Source: Stictocephala bisonia (lineage: Eukaryota; Arthropoda; Insecta; Hemiptera; Membracidae). Taken from it: a DNA stretch of 64,000 bases. Below are positions 4,441 to 63,930 of the stretch, one piece after another. Every line of letters starts with the position of its first letter. Positions within the stretch are counted from its first letter, which is position 1. The stretch lies in NCBI GenBank assembly GCA_035578905.1, contig JAQJVL010000292.1, positions 298,001 through 362,000 on the forward strand, given 5' to 3'. The translations under genes and the position numbers were made by a program. The notes under the pieces were generated by a model that saw only the letters and a program-made list of their open reading frames with translations, had not been told where the DNA came from and searched no databases.

Positions 4441-4764
4441 GGAGCTTTACTGTACTTGTGCCCGGTTAAAGTTCTGCTGTTTAAATGTAAAATTGGCACG
4501 CAAAAGTATGTGAAAATATGCTTCACCAAACTAAAAAAATCTATTCAAGAAATAAAGTTATTTTATTTAGTAAATGTATCATGGATAGAACTTCAAATAA
4601 AATATGAGACACTTTAAATTTTGATAAAGTTTTGTTTCAGACGTTTTCTGTTAACATTGAGCTATACAGGCGTTCTTGATCCATTGACGTTATGTATCTT
4701 CAATACCAAATAAAGCATTATTAAGTACGTAGAAAAGTTGAGAGGGCTTGTTAATCAAACATAG

Positions 4765-5600
4765 ATGTAGAGGCACTGAGGAGCCACCATGGACATGGGT
4801 GTACAGATACTGAGGTGCCTCCAAGGACGTGGGCGTACGGGAACTGAGGAGCCACAAAAGACGTGGGTGTACACAGAATGAGGTGCCACTAAGAACGTGG
4901 ATGTACAGAAACTGAGGTGCCACCAAGAACGTGGGTATACAGGCACTGAGGAGTCACCAAGGGCGTGGATGTACAGATACTGAGGTGCCACCAAGTGCGT
5001 GGGTGTACATATACTGAGGTGCCACCAAGGGCGTGGGTATACAGGCACTGAGGAGCCACCAAGGACGTGGGTGTACAGGCACTGAATTGCCACCAAGGGC
5101 GTTGGTGTACAGATACTGAGGTGCCACCAAGGGCGTGGGTGTACAGAGACTGAGATGCCACCAAGAACGTGAGTGTACAGAGACTGAGGTGACACCAAGG
5201 ACGTGGGTGTAGAGGCACTGAGGAGCCACCAAGGACGTGGATGTACAGAGACTGAGGTGCCACCAAGGACGTGAGTTTACAGAGACTGAGGTGCCACCAA
5301 GAACGTGGGTGTACAGAGACCGAGGTGTCACCAAGAACGTGGGTATACAGGCACTGATGAGCCACCAAGGACGTGGGTGTTAAGATACTGAGGCGCCACC
5401 AAGGGCGTGGGTGTACAGAAACTAAGGTGCCACCAAGAACGTGGGTATACAGGCGCTGAGGAGCCACCAAGGACGTGAATGTTAAGATACTGAGGAGCCA
5501 CCAAGGACGTGGGTGTTAAGATACTGGGATGCCACCAAGGGCGTGGGTGTACAGTGGACCCACAAAAATATTGGTTTACAGAGGAGCCACCAAACATGAG
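4765..5600. repeat. 34-bp minisatellite, about 24-25 copies
   Basis: Tandem array with unit GCCACCAAGGACGTGGGTGT plus ACAGAGACTGAGGT. The GCCACC blocks recur every 34 bp (for example 5055 and 5089). Units differ by a few substitutions (GGACG/GAACG/GGGCG; GAGGAGCC/GAGGTGCC). Because 34 is not a multiple of 3 and the unit lacks stops on the minus strand, all three minus frames stay open (4755-5198, 4889-5470, 4954-5334), each giving a 34-residue repeat per three units. These frames are a by-product of the array and not good gene candidates. Confidence 0.92.
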
Positions 5601-7540: not shown

Positions 7541-8085
7541 TAGTGCAGGTAATGAATATCTAGAACAATTCAAGTACATACGCAACTGTCATTCTTACCT
7601 GTGTCACCCGTATGTCAGTAACATTGTTGATGTAGAGATAAATAACAAAGGACCAGGAGCTGATCCCACGTATGACGGGCCTCTTCACAAGTTGTTGTCG
7701 GTCTGTAAGATATGACTTTATGCAGTTAATATTAGCCATTTTTAATGTATGAGAAGTAAAGAGTGATAAACGCAATCAAAATCTTTTGATAAATCAAAGT
7801 TAAAATAGTAACAAGTCTCCTATCCATTGCAAGTCTAATGTCATCACTAATTTTGATAAATGCAGCAGTCGTATGATAAGAACGAAAGTCAGACTAGTGT
7901 CATCCTGGTAAGACATAAATTGTTGATGTACGACTCGTTCAAGACATTTGGAAAGGGCGGAAAGATTACTAATAGGCCTAAAATCAGAAGGAGGTTCAGG
8001 TGAGGAGCATTTTTGAATTGTACGTACTACTGCTTGTTTCCAGAGAACTGAAAAAACTTATGAATTTAAAGATACATTGACTATT
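7540..8085 (-). pseudogene. LINE reverse transcriptase fragment, frameshifted
   Basis: Conceptual translation of the minus strand, over more than one frame, gives reverse-transcriptase motifs in order: FRPISNLSALSKCLERVV (about 8010-7940), ISDDIRLAMDRRL, a decayed F-D-C-V-HSLL block (RT block with the first catalytic Asp), IKSYLTDRQQLV, and a VIYLYINNVTD block (7620-7640) where intact elements read LLFVIYINDVTD. These are hallmarks of the reverse transcriptase of Jockey/CR1-type non-LTR retrotransposons. Several frameshifts and stops separate the blocks, the YADD region is missing, and no endonuclease domain is present, so this is a dead 5'- and 3'-truncated relic. It is a different insertion from the remnant just upstream, because the domain order would otherwise be reversed. 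Confidence 0.85.
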
Positions 8086-8109
8086 TTGGTTACTATGGGT
8101 AGTTGGTTC

Positions 8110-49009: not shown

Positions 49010-49300
49010 ATCTCTAAAAGTGAAATGTCTATGATATTGAGTTTTGAAATGATGCAATCAATTATGTATGTCGTAGTTGATGTGTCAGAACTGACAAAAC
49101 AGTTGATATGAACAAGGCGAAACCAGGTAACGCCAAACACCATGAAACGGTCCTGCCATGTTCAACCACGGAGAGGAGCTTTGAGCTAGTATACAATGCA
49201 TTTCAAAAGTGACATTCTGTTGCCCTTGATGTTGAAAGCTAGTTAAACCAGAAGCCTAGGGAGTTGCTATATAAAGCACATTATAGTTCTCTTATCAGTA
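49010..49300 (+). repeat. Dispersed repeat shared with 63.65 kb, copy 1
   Basis: Ordered shared blocks with 63,650-63,930: TCAGAACTGACAAAACAGTT, GAAACCAGGTAA, CCATG-A-CGGT, GAGCTTTGAGCTAGTAT, CAATGCATTT-AAAAG and CTTGATGTTGAA. Same orientation in both. No ORF. Class unknown. Confidence 0.8.
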
Positions 49301-50539: not shown

Positions 50540-51600
50540 AGAAATCAGAATATCTTTATTAAAAAACAACACAAAAGTTGCACAATAGTGTCAATACAAC
50601 TTAGACATCCACCAACTTGGTTTATGTGTTCGTTAAATCGAAGACGTCTGTCTATTTGTACACAAAAAAAATTTGGTTGAAGTGGTGGTATTAATTTCCA
50701 AGGCTCCAATGAAAAAAGTGAGTGGGTTAGCATTTCCTCTGTTATTTACTTGAAAATCTATAATATGTGTTTTATTGCTATTAAGATCAATTTTATTTAA
50801 ATTCAACGATTGAAGGAGTGCATTTACTTTTTCATAGGCCTTAACAATAATTAATTGCTGTCCAATTGACAGCTGACAACGACAGAGAAGTATGTATCAT
50901 CAGCGAACAGGCAAATATTTTTGTCATCAGCTGATCATTTACTCCTAGGGGAAGGTTTTTAATGAACAGGAGAAATAAGGTGGGCCCCAGAACCGGACCC
51001 TGAAACCCCTCTAATTACATCTGCCGGAGAAGAAGTGGCTGAATTGGCAAAAGGAATCTTCACTTGTTGAGTCCAATCACTAAAGTAGGAACAGATCCAC
51101 GAGTGCGTTATGCACCTAATACCCAAAGAATTAAGTCTTCTTGAAGTATTTTGTGGTCTACCATGTCGAAGGATTTTCGCAAATCAAAAACATACCGACT
51201 GATGGTTTGCCATCGTCAAGAGCTCGACCTGTTGCAGATATGAAAGAGTTTACAGCATCAACGCTTTCATCAATAAATCAAAAAGGCATAATGATTTATT
51301 TTTGGTAAACCCATATATTGATGCGGAGTAAGAAGACTGTTGCGTTCATAGAAATGAGTCTCCTGGAGAGGAAAACCCGTTCAAACAACTTAGCAAAAGT
51401 AGTTAGGACAGTGATCGGCATATAGTTGTTTTCATCGTTTTTGTCACCCTTTTATGAACTGGTCTTACTATGGCGTGCTTTAGCACTTCAGAAAACTGCC
51501 AGTCTCTAAGGAGAGGTTGATGATATGAAAAAGGGGCGATGATGCTAGATCATATACAATCCGTTTATGATGTAGTTCGAGAATAAAGTTTTATCGTATC
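50540..51600 (-). pseudogene. LINE reverse transcriptase pseudogene
   Basis: Minus-strand motifs in order, across many frameshifts: PLFHIINLSLETGSF, KNDENNYMPITVLTTFAKLF, ESVDAVNSFISATGRALDDG, a DLRKSFDMVDHKIL block (RT block with the first catalytic Asp), a GxxGPxLxxLF block, SLNLNKIDLNSNKTHIIDFQ, and finally GVQIDRRLRFNEHINQVGG (about 50,670-50,600). This is most of the RT domain of a Jockey/CR1-like element. The region around YADD is disrupted. There is no endonuclease, so it is 5' truncated and inactive. Confidence 0.85.
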
Positions 51601-51929: not shown

Positions 51930-52108
51930 ACATTAAGCGACTACTCACAACATTAATTCGTAGGGATTTATTCATAGGTTTGTAATTATCTGACTGATTT
52001 AAAGGTAATAAAGCGTCTTTAAAATTTTTAGTTCACTCCAAATTGGAACTTGGAGCAATCATCTGGCATCCATATCATGCATATCTCTCTGATACTATCG
52101 AAAATGTC
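51930..52108 (+). pseudogene. LINE ORF2 fragment adjoining a tandem array
   Basis: The plus strand reads LVHSKLELGAIIWHPYHAYL, then SDTIENVQ, preceded by a decayed LGF.IRLS.DFK block. This is the conserved SLVRSKLEYGSxIWxPxY...IExVQ segment after the RT domain in non-LTR retrotransposons. The similarity stops exactly where the ~100-bp array begins (about 52,108). Confidence 0.75.
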
Positions 52109-52109
52109 C

Positions 52110-52995
52110 AAAGTTGGTGTATGGCGTGCTCGACGATGCAACTCAGTTATCAACGTTTGAACTGTATTCCTTATGCAGGAGCGGCGGCTGGCTATGTTGG
52201 TTTATCTGCGGAAGTTGGTGTGTGGCGCGCTCGACGAAGCTACTCTGTTATCAACGTTTGAACTGGATTCCTTATGCAGGGGTGGCTGGGGGCTATGTTG
52301 GTTTATCTGCGGAATTTGGTGTGTGCGTGCTCGACGATGCAACTCTGTTATCAACGTTTGTACTGTATTCCTTATGCAGGAGCGGCGGCTGGCTATGTTG
52401 GTTTATCTGCGGAAGTTGGTGTGTGGCGCGCTCGACGATGCTACTCTGTTATCAACGTTTGAACTGGATTCCTTATGCAGGGGTGGCTGGGGGCTATGTT
52501 GGTTTATCTGCGGAATTTGGTGTGTGCGTGCTCGACGATGCAACTCTGTTATCAACGTTTGTACTGTATTCCTTATGCAGGAGTGGGGGGTGGCTATGTT
52601 GGTTTATCTGCGGAAGTTGGTGTGTGGCGTGCTCGACGATGCAACTCTGTTATCAACGTTTGAACTGTATTCTTTATGCAGGGGTGGCGGGTGTCATATT
52701 GGTTTATCTGCGGGAGTTGGTGTGTGACGTTCTTGACGATGCAACTTTGTTATCATCGTTTGCACTGTATTCCTTATGCAAGGGTAGCGGGTGTCTATAT
52801 TGGTTTAGCAACGGAAGTTGGAGTGTGGCGTGCTCGACGAAGCAACTCTGTTATCAACGTTTGTACTGTATTCCTTATGCAAGGGCGGCGGGTGGCTATG
52901 TTGGTTTAGCTACGGAAGTTGGAGTGTGGTGTGCTCGACGATGCAACTCTGTTATCAACGTTTGAACTGGATTCTTTATGCAGGGGTGGCGGGTG
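52110..52995. repeat. ~100-bp tandem array, 9 copies, 201-bp dimers
   Basis: GCTCGACGA(T/A)GCAACTC recurs at 52,128, 52,229, 52,329, 52,430, 52,530 and 52,631 to 52,933, with spacings alternating 101 and 100 bp. Two monomer types (GAAGTTGGTGTGTGGCG versus GAATTTGGTGTGTGCG) alternate, so the true unit is a 201-bp dimer in the first half. Because 201 is 67 codons, long frames persist (for example 52,114-52,965, 283 codons, starting at GTG). They encode a Cys/Trp-rich 67-residue repeat in all three plus frames at once, a typical array artefact. Confidence 0.9.
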
Positions 52996-57875: not shown

Positions 57876-57884
57876 TATTATCAA

Positions 57885-57912
57885 ATCAAATCAATCAAAT
57901 CAAATATTTATT
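57885..57912 (-). repeat. LINE 3' tail microsatellite
   Basis: Plus strand ATCAAATCAAATCAATCAAA..., so the element's 3' end reads TTTGATTTGATTGATTTGAT. Short 3'-terminal repeats replacing poly(A) are typical of CR1/L2-type LINEs and mark the reverse-transcription start. Confidence 0.85.
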
Positions 57913-58075
57913 TGCAATGACATTACAAAAATGTATAGCAAACGTCATCCCTATATAAAAATCTAAAACATACATCCCACATAAAAGCCTCTGTCAAAAC
58001 ATACATCATTTACTGTTGCACTCATAGTCACTCATACCAAATCCCCACTTCCGACACCGGTTGTCAGTCTTCTGA

Positions 58076-58342
58076 TTATGCGGTCTCCCAGTTGTATGCC
58101 ATAAACTCGTCCACACTATAAAATGCATGAGACGCTAAACAGCGTTTGAGACGAGTTTTTAACGCCTTGAGCGTTGGGGCATTCTTAATTGAATCCGGCA
58201 ACTTGTTGACAAAACGAACACCTGCGTGTGAGGGCAAGCGTTCGTGGACTACCGTCCTGTGATTCCCAGTTCGGTAGTTGTTTCTGCCTCTTGTGTCGTG
58301 TGTATGTATGTCCCGACCACTTGTCATAACGCTTTTGGACAT
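58076..58342 (-). pseudogene. ORF2 C-terminal piece, separated by a frameshift
   Basis: This 88-codon frame (MSKSVMTSGRDIHTHDTRGR ... GVRFVNKLPDSIKNAPTLKA ... KTRLKRCLASHAFYSVDEFM) is the C-terminal tail of the LINE ORF2. The GxRFxNKLPxxIK motif is the conserved ORF2 tail. It lies one reading phase from the upstream 867-codon frame, which stops at 58,346-58,344. The join lies in or near the homopolymer GGGG (CCCC on the coding strand) at 58,351-58,354; one surplus base there would account for the shift. The internal ATG at its start is probably not a real initiation codon. Confidence 0.88.
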
Positions 58343-58343
58343 G

Positions 58344-60947
58344 CTAAATAGGGGTTGTCTCCAGTATGTAAAGGCTAGGCAATGTCAACAGTTGCAATTT
58401 TTTAAATGTTTCTTTGCAGGTTTCTCTGAACTTTAATTGTGCAACAATGCGAACCGCTTGTTTTTGCAATTTAAATGCTCTGCTAAACTGATTGTTTGCA
58501 GAAGCTCCCCACAGCACCACACCGTAGGTGAGATGGGGGTAAATCAAACCGTAATAGGCCGTCATTAGAACTTGAATTGGGCAGAATTTTGCTAACGTTC
58601 TCAAAACATAAATGCCTGAGGACAATTTGGAGCAAATATGGTCCATGTGCGAATTCCAGGTCAACCCTCGATCCAGGTGTATTCCCAAGAATTTTGAACT
58701 AACAGTCTCATCTAACCGTTTATCTGCCAGCCAAATGAGTGGTCTCTCCATGTCATCATATGGTCGCAACGAAAATGACAAAACATTACATTTTGAGGGG
58801 TTTACTTCAAGATTGAGACTGTTGAAATATTGGACACAATTGTTTAAATCAAAAAAAGCTTGTTGTTCAAGGATCGGTGTTAATTTGTTTCTGTATAAAA
58901 GGGTCGTGTCATCTGCGTACTGAATGAGTTGCCCATGCATTAGCGATGACCCTATGTCGTTGACATAGATAAGAAAAAGAATCGGGCTGATTATTGAGCC
59001 CTGAGGAACTCCGTATCTCAGCTCTATTGGTTCAGAGAATTTGTCTGAAATTTGGACAACTTGGAATCGGTTGTTCAGAAAAGAGTGAAGCCACTTGAGT
59101 GGCACTCCTCTTATACCATAAAATTCAAGTTTGTCAAGCAGCTTAGAGTGGTCAACACAATCGAAAGCTTTTGATATGTCGAGAAATACACTAAGTGTGT
59201 AATCTCGATCTTCTAATCCCTCAACAACCTTCTCGACTAGACTCACAACAGCATCTACTGTCGATTTGTTTTTTCTGAAACCAAATTGGTTGTCAGAGAG
59301 AAGGTTGTGTCTGTTTAGAAACTGCACCATTCTAATTAAAAAGAGTTTTTCGAATACTTTGCTTAAAACTGGCAAAATTGAGACAGGCCTGTAATTGTTT
59401 ATGGAATAAGGATCACTTTTCTTTAAAATTGGACATACTTTTGCAACTTTAAGGAGTGAGGGAAAAACTCCATTTTCGAAAGATGAATTTATCAATTGCG
59501 TCAATGGTGTAATGATCTGTTTCGCAAACTTTTTAGTGAGCCACACGGACATTAAATATATATCGTTTGATTTTTTGGCTGGGAGCTGCTGAATAATTTT
59601 CTCGACCTCTTCCTCAACTACCGGAGCCAGTACCATTGATGTAACTGGGCTCCGTATACGCATAGGGGTTTCTTGTGGAGTTGAATGACAGGCGCCGAGC
59701 TCAAAAGCAACAGACGCGAAGAATCTATTAAACTCGTTTGCCACATCGGTCGAATCGTCTACAAGTCTTTCCCCAACTTTAACTTTAATTTGTTTCCGTT
59801 CTATTTGCTTATTGTTTATGATGTCCCACACAGTTTTGGGAACATTTTTAGATAAAATGATTGCTTTGGATACATTATACGATTTTGCGGCTTGGATAAC
59901 CTTTCTGTAAATTCTTTTGTAATTTTGGTAAAACAATTTGAAATTTTGATTTGTATTTGTTTTGTAAATTTTGGAGTAAAATTTGAGTTTTTCTCTCGAA
60001 ACCAAAATTCCTTTAGTTATCCATTTGTTATTTTTCTTTTTTGGTAAAGCATTGATTGTTTTAGTAGGACAACATGTATTTAAGTAAAAATTCAGGCAGT
60101 CTGAAAAATATTTAAAATTCTTTTCGACTGACTGTGATGAATTGAAACATTTCCACTTTTCTTTAGAAAGGGAAGCGTTGAGGAGGGCGATATTACTTGG
60201 CCTTGTGTCTCTTATTGTTTTGGTAATTTTGGGCTCCCTTACAATTGCATCCCCACTAATTACAGCCTCTTGGCCGTAGTGGTCGGAAATCGCTGTATTG
60301 ACCACGTAAACTGCGACACCTGAGAGATTGGTGATGACGTTGTCGATCGCTGTTTGAGTTGTTGCCGACACCCGCGTTGGTGTATTTATTAACAACTCCA
60401 GGCCGAACGTTCTTAGCAGGTCGATCAATCTTTTGGTGATTGGAGAATTGTCGACCAACGCGTCAATGTTAAAGTCACCCATCAGCACATAATTCTGTTT
60501 ATGTGCTGATAGGTGCATTAGTAATGATTCGAGTTTTGAGAAAAATATACCTTCATTTCCACTGGGAGATCTGTATATGCCGATTACGACTATTTTTGAA
60601 TTTTGTGTGTGAAATTTGATACCGACTGCTTCAAAATATTTTTCGATCGTCTCATTGAGAATGAACGTGTCGAAAGCATAATTTTGTTTCACGAAAATTG
60701 CGACACCTCCTCCTTTGGAGAGTTGACGGCAATATGTGCTGGCTAAATTGAAATTTGGAATTTGACAACGATCGATATTATTGTTATTGAATCCATTTTC
60801 AGTTACCACAAGCACGTCTGTTTGTAACTCCTCACACATGATTTGGATTTCTTCTAATTTGTTAGTGGCAAATTGGGCATTTTGATGAAGCAGTCGTATT
60901 ATACTTTGATTTGAGTTTGTGTGAGTTCGTTGAGTTGAGTCAGTCAA
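58344..60947 (-). CDS. LINE ORF2: endonuclease-reverse transcriptase
   Basis: This protein nicks target DNA and reverse-transcribes the element's RNA from the nick (target-primed reverse transcription). Numbered over 867 residues, the endonuclease spans about 18-230 with HQNAQ (N23), VVTENG (E50), YRSPSG (126-130), GDFNID (157-162), IDNVITN (201-207) and SDHYGQ (D222, H223). The reverse transcriptase spans about 450-770 with NNYRPVSILPVLSKVFEKL (517-535), VFLDISKAFD (D590), YGVPQGS (645-651), YADD (677-680) and KFLGI. All catalytic residues I can check are intact. The frame opens with TTG at 60,947, overlapping the ORF1 stop (ATTGAC). There is no in-frame ATG before the endonuclease and a stop lies upstream, so translation probably depended on reinitiation, or an ATG has been lost. 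It ends early through a frameshift; the natural C-terminus is the piece at 58,076-58,342. Confidence 0.95.
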   Translation of the reverse strand: MTDSTQRTHTNSNQSIIRLLHQNAQFATNKLEEIQIMCEELQTDVLVVTENGFNNNNIDRCQIPNFNLASTYCRQLSKGGGVAIFVKQNYAFDTFILNETIEKYFEAVGIKFHTQNSKIVVIGIYRSPSGNEGIFFSKLESLLMHLSAHKQNYVLMGDFNIDALVDNSPITKRLIDLLRTFGLELLINTPTRVSATTQTAIDNVITNLSGVAVYVVNTAISDHYGQEAVISGDAIVREPKITKTIRDTRPSNIALLNASLSKEKWKCFNSSQSVEKNFKYFSDCLNFYLNTCCPTKTINALPKKKNNKWITKGILVSREKLKFYSKIYKTNTNQNFKLFYQNYKRIYRKVIQAAKSYNVSKAIILSKNVPKTVWDIINNKQIERKQIKVKVGERLVDDSTDVANEFNRFFASVAFELGACHSTPQETPMRIRSPVTSMVLAPVVEEEVEKIIQQLPAKKSNDIYLMSVWLTKKFAKQIITPLTQLINSSFENGVFPSLLKVAKVCPILKKSDPYSINNYRPVSILPVLSKVFEKLFLIRMVQFLNRHNLLSDNQFGFRKNKSTVDAVVSLVEKVVEGLEDRDYTLSVFLDISKAFDCVDHSKLLDKLEFYGIRGVPLKWLHSFLNNRFQVVQISDKFSEPIELRYGVPQGSIISPILFLIYVNDIGSSLMHGQLIQYADDTTLLYRNKLTPILEQQAFFDLNNCVQYFNSLNLEVNPSKCNVLSFSLRPYDDMERPLIWLADKRLDETVSSKFLGIHLDRGLTWNSHMDHICSKLSSGIYVLRTLAKFCPIQVLMTAYYGLIYPHLTYGVVLWGASANNQFSRAFKLQKQAVRIVAQLKFRETCKETFKKLQLLTLPSLYILETTPI

Positions 60948-62203
60948 TTTCGCCCGATGTCGGTAAGTGGGGCACCTAAAAAAGAATTACTATTACTAGT
61001 GGTCAATCCAGTAGGCCGCTGGGTAGGTTGATTGGTCACCAAAGCCTCTGCATAGCTGACAACTTGTTGACACGGTGTGAAGGTTGTCTGCGGGTTGGAG
61101 ATGGTTGTCACTCCGAGGCGGTTAGCACGTGAAGTAGTGCCGGATTCGGCCGACTCGGGAGTTCTCGACTGGGCCATCCCGTCGGCTACGCACTTCATGC
61201 CCTCTAATATCAGACATGCCAGTAGTCGTTTGCCGGCCATTCGCAGGTGCATACCATGCCTAGTGAAGTAGCGTCTTCCAATAGAGTTGATGTTTAGCAG
61301 CTGCACCTGATTGAATCTGGCACAAAGTTCTTCAATAAAGTTATTGATATGTGCAGTCTGCATATGTACGGGGTGGCCCGCCGGCAAATCGTGTCGTATT
61401 GGTAGTGTAGAGACGATAACTGCACTAGATGGAGTGAGGAGAGAGGTGACTATCCTTTCGAGATGATTTCGTACATTCTCGGGAGCTCCTGCTGCAACGT
61501 CGTTAGTGCCCGCTATCAACACTGTACAGCTCCTTGGTGGTGGTGGTGGACTTCCAGACGAAACAGTGACAAGACCTGCTCCGGGCTTACACATCCCACT
61601 CACTTTTATCTTGGGGCTGACTTTCTCCTGCAGCATGCTGGCCAGGTGACGAGTGTGGCTATCTCCCTTGATGTGCAGTAAATTAAAGATTGGTGGGCTG
61701 ATGGTGTTTGGTTTGGGATTTAAAACTTGATTTTTATGAATCCTGTGCTGTCTGTTACATTGTTTGTTGTTAGACCTATGTGTCGTCCGATTATGATTGG
61801 AACCTGTAGATGGTGTGATTTTTAGGTAAGGTTCAGGTACTTCTTCTGGCAGCTTCGTGAATCTGTTCTGTGTGAGGACTGGAGGTGATTTTTTTCTTTG
61901 GCATAAGATCCAGTTTTCCTGTTTTTCTTGTGAGGATCTACTTCCAAACTCGAGCTCCTTTTTTTCCGCTCTCAGGCAACTAACCTCAGCTTCCAGGACT
62001 TCGATGGTGGTGCGAAGACTTTTTATGAAGTCTTGTGTATTCTGACAATGTTGACAGATTGTCTGCTGTATCTCACACTGAGTGGAACAGTCCGAACGAG
62101 AGACTTGCTTCGGTGAGTCCGCTTGTGATGTGTTGCTGATGAATATCTGGTCGGTGTATTCCAGCAGTCGGGTATCTGATTCGATCGTGGTCGAGGACGC
62201 ATT
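60944..62203 (-). pseudogene. LINE ORF1, coiled-coil and SGNH/esterase-like part
   Basis: The frame is open from just below the in-frame TAA at 62,206-62,204 down to TGA at 60,944, about 419 codons. The first ATG is only at 61,636, inside the hydrolase domain, so that ATG-initiated frame (230 aa) understates the domain. Reading from the upstream end: DTRLLEYTDQIFISN, a Cys cluster (DCSTQCEIQQTICQHC), a coiled coil (TIEVLEAEVSCLRAEKKELE), a basic linker, then SGNH blocks: IKGDSHTRHLASML (block I, nucleophile Ser of GDS), VLIAGTNDVAAG (block III GxND) and FTRHGMHLRMAGKRLL (block V, catalytic His region). Esterase-like ORF1 domains are known in CR1/L2-type LINEs, where their role is unsettled. 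This part is one phase from the FLYWCH part and would be its continuation without a single-base shift. Confidence 0.88.
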
Positions 62204-62693
62204 TTAGCTGATTCTTGACCTCCGATAGCTGGTCCCTCAGTCTAATGTTCTCGGCTTCCATCTCGGTATTAGTAGTTGAGGTGTGTCTAGCAGGAGTTGA
62301 GTGATTAAATGAAGCTGAAGGTTCATTGGCTGGCGTTGACGGAGATCGAGGGGGCGTTACAGTATCTTCCGAGTGGCCAGAAACCGCCTCCTTAGCTACA
62401 GGGTTGGAGACCGGTGCACTAGTGAGAGTAGGCACGGGGTTTTTGGCTGGAAGACGACGCTTTTGTGTTGGAGTAAGAGACCTCATCGTCACTGGATGTG
62501 GTCCACTATGTGAATTGACCGAAGAGTAAATGGTGGTCTTTTCTGGATTTGATTTTATTGAGGCTTTACAGGATTTCCCCAAACACTTCCACACAAGATC
62601 GCCACTCTTGATAGAATATGTTTCCCGATATCTGTGGTTCTTGAACAGTATTGTGTCTTTTCCAGTCTTTGACACTTCTAATATAAAAGACAT
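62073..62693 (-). pseudogene. LINE ORF1, N-terminal FLYWCH zinc-finger part
   Basis: Starts at ATG 62,691-62,693. Residues about 1-70 form a FLYWCH-type zinc finger: a hydrophobic lead (FILEVSKTGKDTILFKNHRY), WKCLGKSC (Cys-x4-Cys after the Trp), ASIKSN, then SVNSHSGPH (His-x-x-x-x-His-type end). A Pro/Ser/Thr-rich linker follows (about 71-135), then a short coiled-coil start (EAENIRLRDQLSEVKNQLK). Beyond about residue 163 (62,203) the frame is out of phase and yields an aberrant tail to the stop at 62,073. The true continuation is the other frame, giving an intended ORF1 of about 580 residues. FLYWCH fingers bind DNA or protein in other families; here nucleic-acid binding is inferred. Confidence 0.85.
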
Positions 62694-62757
62694 TGTTTAT
62701 AGTGGTCTTTACTTTGGGAAGAAAAAAATATTATAGTAAATAAATTAGTTACAAATA

Positions 62758-62817
62758 AAACAACAAATAAATTGAAAGACAACAAATAAATAAATAGACA
62801 ACAAATAAATTAACAGT
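62758..62817. repeat. 19-bp x 3 tandem repeat beside the LINE 5' end
   Basis: CAACAAATAAATTGAAAGA at 62,761-62,779 is repeated with changes at 62,780-62,798 and 62,799-62,817. It may be flanking DNA or part of the element's 5' region. Confidence 0.8.
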
Positions 62818-62819
62818 TA

Positions 62820-63640
62820 AAAAGACGAGCACACATATAATTTTAAAATGATAAAAATAGTAGTAAATAAATTATTAAACAATCAGTATTATTTTTTTGA
62901 TCAATTAAATAAAATGTACAATTACAATTGTTTAAAAATTATTTTGTGGCATACATGAGTTGCTAAATTATAACAACTTTTTAAAATTCAGGTTACCATA
63001 AACGTGAATTTAAAATCCAATAGGCAACGTAAAGAAATAAATATATATGAGTCGTTAATATAATCATAAATAAAATATTAATCACTAACTCCTTTAGCAT
63101 TTGCATTGCATACGAGATGTATTTATGTTGATATCAGATTGTTATACCGTGTTAAAAATGTACTTTATATTCTTTAAAATTAAAAGCACAGGATTTTACA
63201 AACTAATTCATATTTTCATATAATATAGTCCATTAAAAACAATTGGTGACAGACGAGTCAATAAATTTAAAAAATTACTTTGTAAAGTAGAAGCAGTAAA
63301 TATTATACTATTCAATAAAAATGTAGGGCTTCCTATACATTTTTTAACGCTACCATTGTGGTGAATTTTAACATTATGTTTATTTAAATCATAATATTAA
63401 CTCAATACATGAATAATTACAACATTATATGTTACAATTATACTCAAAATTTTTCTTGTCGGTGATTTTAACCATTTATTCAACTATTCAAATGATTTTA
63501 GCCGGTGATTTATTCAACTATTCATTTTCAAGTTTTATCAATAACAAGTAAATTATCACATTGTTTAATGCGTTGCTTTTAAAATTCTATCGCAAAATGA
63601 AGAAAGAAAAAAAAATCATTTCGATGTGATACAATTTCTG
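62820..63640. other. AT-rich sequence, nothing recognised
   Basis: No coding or repeat signal beyond a small local duplication near 63,463-63,525 (GTGATTTTA-CC-TTATTCAACTATTCA). Confidence 0.5.
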
Positions 63641-63649
63641 AAAGTAAAT

Positions 63650-63930
63650 CTGTGATAATGAACTTTAAAGTTCGTCAATCAATCATCCGTTTTGGAACTA
63701 ATCCTCCGAGGATCAGAACTGACAAAACAGTTGAGCAGACCGGAAACCAGGTAATTATCCAAGCACGTTCCGCCATGGAGCGGTTCTGGTGTGTTAAACC
63801 ACGCAGAGAGCTTTGAGCTAGTATTCAATGCATTTTAAAAGCAACATGCTATACTCTTGATGTTGAATGTTAGCTAAAACATAAGCTTAGTGAATTTTTT
63901 TAATATAAAGCATATTAGTATATAGGTTAT
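63650..63930 (+). repeat. Dispersed repeat shared with 49.0 kb, copy 2
   Basis: Second copy of the 49,010-49,300 repeat: GATCAGAACTGACAAAACAG, GGAAACCAGGTAAT, GAGAGCTTTGAGCTAGTATT, CAATGCATTTTAAAAG, CTTGATGTTGAATG and ATATAAAGCA. Same orientation. Confidence 0.8.

Follow-up and report, generated by a model that had tools for sequence, protein, structure and literature searches.

An insect LINE whose ORF1 joins a FLYWCH zinc finger to an SGNH esterase-like domain

Layout of the LINE in the 64-kb window

The window analysed here is a 64,000-nucleotide stretch of the hemipteran insect Stictocephala bisonia (GenBank assembly GCA_035578905.1, contig JAQJVL010000292.1, positions 298,001 to 362,000 of the forward strand), and the subject is a long interspersed nuclear element (LINE) on its minus strand. 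From the letters alone, the original prediction had assigned a FLYWCH zinc finger and an SGNH/esterase-like domain to the first open reading frame (ORF1) of this element. Both minus-strand frames that it named are present, and the element is laid out as follows, in window coordinates.

57877..62872, minus strand: LINE element, both ends approximate, extent taken from homology to two other genomic copies, L040 and L039
60944..62693, minus strand: ORF1, with a single phase change at about 62,185-62,195 in the window copy
62478..62693, minus strand: FLYWCH zinc finger, residues 1-72
62262..62477, minus strand: Pro/Ser/Thr-rich linker, a low-confidence stretch in the structure model of a relative, P0001
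62140..62261, minus strand: first coiled coil, approximate, containing the phase change (helix 155-197 in the P0001 model)
61949..62092, minus strand: Cys cluster and second coiled coil, approximate (helix 238-267 in the P0001 model)
61172..61699, minus strand: SGNH/GDSL esterase-like domain
61,655-61,666 (GDSH), 61,499-61,513 (AGTND), 61,382-61,396 (RHDLP) and 61,244-61,258 (HGMHL), minus strand: SGNH blocks
60977..60983, minus strand: heptamer T TTT TTA, a candidate site of -1 frameshifting, read in the frame of ORF1 where the ORF2 frame starts
58344..60986, minus strand: ORF2, in the -1 frame relative to ORF1
about 60,279-60,863 and about 58,674-59,423, minus strand: endonuclease (EN) and reverse transcriptase (RT), respectively, within ORF2 (Pfam matches)
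58076..58384, minus strand: probable C-terminal part of ORF2, past a second phase change of the window copy
57880..57904, minus strand: 3' tail of TTGAT-type repeats, without poly(A)

The element is 98.2% identical to L040 over 5,023 alignment columns and 98.8% identical to L039 over 4,860. Pfam searches for EN and RT, which were made on the window and on the copy L044, matched the window ORF2 to RVT_1 (E 5.4e-36), Exo_endo_phos PF03372 (E 1.2e-8) and PF14529 (E 8.5e-7), placing an APE-type endonuclease upstream of an RVT_1-type RT; the best PDB sequence match is LINE-1 ORF2p. The window element is an EN- and RT-bearing LINE, and dispersed, 5'-truncated copies of it occur in the genome, as is typical of LINEs. 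A point on the other side is that the approximate flanks of the window copy share no repeat of 8 nt or more that could be a target-site duplication. The C-terminal part of ORF2 (58076..58384) matches no Pfam family, and the 819-amino-acid (aa) ORF2 frame of L039 ends in the same C-terminus. A tree of nine RT rows, restricted to RTs of this genome, had too little resolution.

The two domains share one frame in other copies and in relatives

The original prediction expected an ORF1 of about 580 residues after one phase change. In the near-identical copy L039, ORF1 is open over 585 aa in a single frame, with ORF2 interrupted once. We used the 419-aa half of ORF1 as a homolog query (E<=0.001) and obtained 97 proteins, 80 from Homalodisca vitripennis, 15 from 'lgn' contigs and 2 from 'jgi'. 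At E<=0.01, Pfam found FLYWCH in 30 of these and GDSL_2 in 58, and a finger motif stands near the N-terminus of 35; many of the remaining homologs start further in, as expected if their gene models are truncated or fused. P0001 and others have all parts in a single frame, running from the finger through the linker, a coiled coil, the Cys cluster and another coiled coil to the SGNH domain. In P0037, P0042 and P0071 the esterase half is fused to PDZ, formin or trypsin; these gene models are probably annotation chimeras.

At the joining point of the two ORF1 frames of the window, relatives read LDHTIESD through; the phase change is therefore damage of the window copy. A programmed phase change inside ORF1 was rejected, as both the relatives and L039 are open at that point. 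The 207-aa N-terminal frame, used as a query by itself, gave no match at E<=0.01 among 90 candidates, perhaps because of the length limit and the foreign tail past the phase change. When both window frames were compared with profiles, FLYWCH and GDSL_2 were both recovered, as predicted, in each case weakly and below the Pfam cut-off.

The genome (a 1.68-Gb assembly of 11,105 contigs) holds at least 109 matches to the esterase half (100 scored of 4,843 candidates). FLYWCH is present at 17 of 30 extracted loci, the window included. Copies without FLYWCH upstream of the esterase would have spoken against the combination; all seven of the 13 FLYWCH-less loci that were aligned are 5'-truncated and start downstream of the FLYWCH codons. 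We then read nine 9.9-kb stretches of our own choice, including the window itself (L047). The esterase part is followed by ORF2-like sequence in all nine and preceded by FLYWCH in eight, the ninth (L045) carrying a PWWP domain instead. A single-frame FLYWCH-SGNH ORF1 followed by ORF2-like sequence was found in L039, L041, L042, L043, L044 and L046, and both ORFs are open in L042, L044 and L046. FLYWCH and SGNH thus share one LINE ORF1 across families, in other copies of the genome and in H. vitripennis proteins alike.

These one-frame copies and proteins refute the idea that the finger belongs to a separate gene or to a Mutator-like element (MULE) adjoining the LINE. We hold that explanation to be next to impossible, even though MULE transposases with FLYWCH do occur in the same genome (L005 and L052, by Pfam).

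As an observation apart, an esterase-type match at G000:C6434:11079-12377 lies within a 2,196-aa open frame, possibly an ORF1 joined to ORF2 or to a host gene.

The SGNH domain retains Ser, Asn and His and lacks the Asp of DxxH

The best PDB sequence match of the esterase part is 4c1b, which was not among the 50 matches listed in the fold searches of the P0001 model. That model has an SGNH fold with an upstream coiled coil, the architecture of Type IV ORF1s. In the homolog alignment, the catalytic Ser is kept in 95/96 sequences, the oxyanion Asn in 94/94 and the His of the DxxH motif in 88/92. The Asp of DxxH, assigned by motif position since the 4c1b alignment ends before it, is replaced by His in 84/93 and by Gln in 4; the window (61244-61258) reads HGMH. 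Column 418, aligned with the transposon-specific H191 of PMC3905857, holds I, V, F, L or M in 91/94. For comparison, that paper gives the triad D279-H282-S143 and describes the active site as strongly conserved in transposon esterases, while noting that activity has been lost in some SGNH proteins, Oskar among them.

The label 'esterase' needs care because the Asp of DxxH is replaced. The domain may work by a Ser-His dyad or serve in binding only. With this reservation about DxxH, the window element appears to belong with the LINEs that have esterase-type ORF1s.

The FLYWCH finger is conserved and largely distinct from non-LINE fingers

The FLYWCH profile (PF04500) is exceeded at its curated cut-off by P0001, L043, L046, L048, L051 and P0108. 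The modelled finger has a FLYWCH fold, which ranks next to WRKY DNA-binding domains. Six residues (M1, W35, C37, C42, H62 and H66) are invariant in 27 aligned sequences, all FLYWCH-bearing rows of our choice, and we take C37, C42, H62 and H66 of the window finger to be the likely zinc ligands. Between L039 and L041, the ratio of nonsynonymous to synonymous changes (dN/dS) is 0.11 for FLYWCH and 0.20 for the esterase part, at a dS of about 1; most other pairs were saturated in this comparison. Several points weigh against a finger that reads DNA or chromatin. The window copy scores 14.6 bits against a cut-off of 23.6, the fingers of L042 and L044 are also below it, L039 lacks one candidate ligand (H66Y), and L041 lacks the Trp (W35S). 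Single copies such as the latter two are what a decayed passenger without function would show, but the six invariant residues and the low dN/dS make this explanation very improbable.

FLYWCH is frequent in the genome, with at least 147 matches (150 scored of 800 candidates), and the original prediction had called for a phylogeny of the FLYWCH part. We built a tree from 46 LINE fingers and 13 non-LINE fingers, of which only L005 and L052 are Pfam-confirmed MULE. One clade (97/93) contains 42 of the 46 LINE fingers and none of the 13 others; L049, P0100, P0101 and P0103 fall outside it. A single clade of all 46 LINE fingers was not rejected (p 0.46), and one of the nine fingers from Ulp1-type ORF1s was rejected weakly (p 0.043). 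The LINE fingers thus stand largely apart from the non-LINE fingers sampled, and a MULE as donor of FLYWCH is neither supported nor rejected by this tree.

The N-terminal module differs among related ORF1s

PWWP takes the place of FLYWCH at the N-terminus of L045 (E 1.4e-10, above the cut-off), and it also heads L069 and L070 (E 4.8e-12 and 1.3e-15), places that likewise match the esterase part, so PWWP-type copies recur in the genome. In the TRSQ-type proteins P0024 and P0061, Pfam finds no N-terminal domain. In an esterase tree built from 50 sequences, these two are nested within a FLYWCH group (99/97), and a single clade of all 44 FLYWCH rows is rejected (p 0.0005). Forcing a FLYWCH-defined clade onto the esterase tree leads to rejection (p 5.8e-5 when P0108 is left out, 7e-35 when it is included), and so does forcing an esterase-defined group onto the FLYWCH tree (p 0.0016). 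Set against this conflict are the selection of the tested groups after both trees had been seen, the mere 72 columns of the FLYWCH tree, and the esterase-defined group, which is not a starred branch (86/90).

The PWWP of L045 and the disagreement of the two trees argue that the N-terminal module moves. The finger seems to be only one among several parts placed on a common coiled-coil/SGNH body, and the proposal of a captured module is supported by both the differing N-termini and the tree conflict.

Packaging is the usual role of ORF1, and the finger might accordingly be an RNA-packaging part of the ORF1 protein (ORF1p), compensating for the absence of an RRM or zinc knuckle in esterase-type ORF1s. 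PWWP, however, is a chromatin reader, and it fills the same slot in L045; moreover, the finger's fold ranks beside DNA-binding domains. We regard the packaging explanation as unlikely.

Ulp1-type protease and macrodomain in some ORF1s

A Ulp1-type protease domain (C48) was found in the LINE ORF1s L048, L049, L050, L054-L056, L071 and L072, together with FLYWCH, PWWP or TRSY N-termini. L048 reads FLYWCH, C48 (above the cut-off), an SGNH-like piece and RT, in that order; in its relative L050, our own profile finds the SGNH part complete (59 bits), and the 573-aa open frame of L050 occurs at six places (98-100%), L050 among them. C48 is just below the cut-off in L049. L071 has PWWP and C48 above the cut-off, with a weak GDSL_2 match (E 0.03) and visible motifs, and L072 has a TRSY N-terminus, C48 and, by eye, GDSL-like blocks. 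Proteins from other sources (P0098-P0102, P0108) combine FLYWCH with C48, some below cut-offs, and P0103 and P0107 match C48. Pfam shows no GDSL_2 at E<=0.01 in L048, L049, L051 and P0098-P0103, whose SGNH part rests on a profile that we built from the family. C48 domains are frequent in the genome in general (at least 150 matches, 1,464 candidates; two places read).

A stretch of L049 resembles the macrodomain of TARG1/C6orf130 (PDB sequence match, E 4.8e-10), and, by eye, the 980-aa frame L071+L073 (C213) has a similar C-terminal part; in L049 and L071, Pfam reports no macrodomain at E<=1.

SUMO has a role in heterochromatin. Finger, PWWP, Ulp1 and macrodomain could counter host silencing by directing deSUMOylase or ADP-ribosyl-hydrolase activity to the element's own chromatin, and have no part in site choice. 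The recurrence of C48 in L048, L049, P0098-P0103, P0107 and P0108, its pairing with PWWP in L071, the six places of the 573-aa frame and the TARG1/C6orf130 match in L049 speak for this. On the other hand, Pfam detects neither C48 nor a macrodomain in the window ORF1, nor does C48 appear in the list of families matched by the 97 homologs, and we consider anti-silencing somewhat less probable still than packaging.

A candidate -1 frameshift site at the ORF1/ORF2 overlap

We read the junction in nine families (the window, L041-L046, L055 and L071+L073). In all nine, the -1 frame opens 31-91 nt ahead of the end of ORF1 and runs into the endonuclease (by eye for C213 and L055). Read in frame with ORF1, the overlap contains T TTT TTA in 7/9 families and TTTAAAC in C213, so a canonical heptamer stands there in 8/9. 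About one would be expected in the 183 overlap codons, since the ORF1s have 29 canonical heptamers in 5,573 codons elsewhere. In the seven families compared for codon use, the Phe-Leu of the junction is spelled T TTT TTA/G in 7/7, as against 2/43 of the other Phe-Leu dipeptides. Relatedness alone hardly explains the heptamer, because most families, compared with one another, are almost saturated at synonymous sites. In 8/9 families, no ATG occurs in ORF2 before the HQN motif, taken as the start of the endonuclease.

Some observations tell against frameshifting. The heptamer had been seen by eye in the window before the counting, and the overlap of L044 carries TTTTTTG. In L046, codon 28 of the ORF2 frame is an ATG, close ahead of the endonuclease. 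As for downstream RNA structure, 0/8 stretches folded clearly better than their shuffles (z -1.14 to 1.38, pseudoknots being outside the model). On balance, the conserved heptamer suggests that a -1 frameshift yields ORF2 as a fusion with ORF1, which would tether the N-terminal module to the EN-RT chain.

Proposed mechanism

A DNA-targeting role of the finger is plausible, because of the FLYWCH/WRKY-like fold, the PWWP substitute and the candidate frameshift onto the EN-RT chain; FLYWCH is also described as a DNA-binding domain (PMC10027918). We lean slightly towards a scheme in which ORF1p is a Gag-like protein with an exchangeable N-terminal reader, fused to EN-RT by frameshifting. The finger would bind DNA or chromatin, the coiled coils would oligomerise ORF1p, and the SGNH domain would act as proposed for the ORF1p of ZfL2-1, in lipid/acyl binding or hydrolysis. 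Frameshifting in the cell would yield an ORF1-ORF2 fusion and so put the finger on the EN-RT chain, where it could bias the place at which the particle docks. The reader would be exchanged in some lineages (PWWP, TRSQ-type), and Ulp1 and a macrodomain would be additions in others. A wider and more doubtful proposal is that of a Gag-Pol-like LINE group whose frameshift-tethered, exchangeable readers are traded together with Ulp1 deSUMOylase and TARG1-like ADP-ribosyl-hydrolase modules to enter or reopen particular chromatin.

Relation to known systems

The closest known ORF1s are the Type IV (esterase) ORF1s of CR1/L2-type LINEs such as ZfL2-1 (PMC3905857), which share the coiled coil followed by SGNH and an EN-RT ORF2. 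They differ in that an N-terminal FLYWCH or PWWP is not named in the consulted parts of PMC3905857 and PMC4120745, and in the DxxH Asp, which is replaced here. For CR1 subgroup 7, the latter source lists an esterase together with a zinc finger/leucine zipper, the finger at an HHpred probability of 37; this finger and zipper may correspond to our Cys cluster and coiled coil. The same source confines esterase ORF1s to vertebrate groups, whereas the present element is from an insect; PMC3905857 reports them in many animal phyla. PHD ORF1s of CR1/L2 LINEs (PMC4120745) resemble the present case in having a reader-like finger, N-terminal in several subgroups, and in lineage shuffling; the finger is a different one, and PHD and esterase are never combined in that paper's table.

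FLYWCH is known in another class of transposon protein, the MULE transposases (PMC6446971), which have relatives in this genome; those are DDE transposases, however, and their sampled fingers lie outside the main clade of 42 of the 46 LINE fingers. Ginger1 and Mutator elements with Ulp1 or OTU proteases (PMC2836005) similarly join a SUMO/ubiquitin-type protease, once with PHD, but are DNA transposons, whereas C48 here lies in LINE ORF1s. Among the matches listed for the open-access literature, we found no FLYWCH or PWWP in a LINE ORF1; as far as those matches go, the combination with the esterase was rightly called little described. An esterase ORF1 with an unspecified zinc finger/leucine zipper is on record (PMC4120745). 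Nor did the listed matches include a report of Ulp1 or frameshifting in LINEs, although frameshifting is mentioned for Drosophila HeT-A (PMC5009743).

It is a standing question how LINEs choose chromatin when their endonucleases have relaxed specificity. Related EN-RT machines with different N-terminal modules in one genome are a natural swap experiment, in which mapped insertions of FLYWCH families can be compared directly with those of PWWP families. The case also contributes a candidate LINE polyprotein joined by frameshifting, together with ORF1-borne modules for protein deconjugation, and related LINEs appear to exchange their tools for handling chromatin.

Other observations in the window

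Two fragments, at 51185-51451 and 7932-8093, are similar to RTs from other LINEs (30% and 39% in tblastn). The open frames at 4755-5515 and 52093-52965 have repetitive translations and are probably tandem arrays, not genes. Positions 63713-63917 and 49085-49283 form a repeat pair (211 columns, 75% identity), perhaps a short interspersed repeat.

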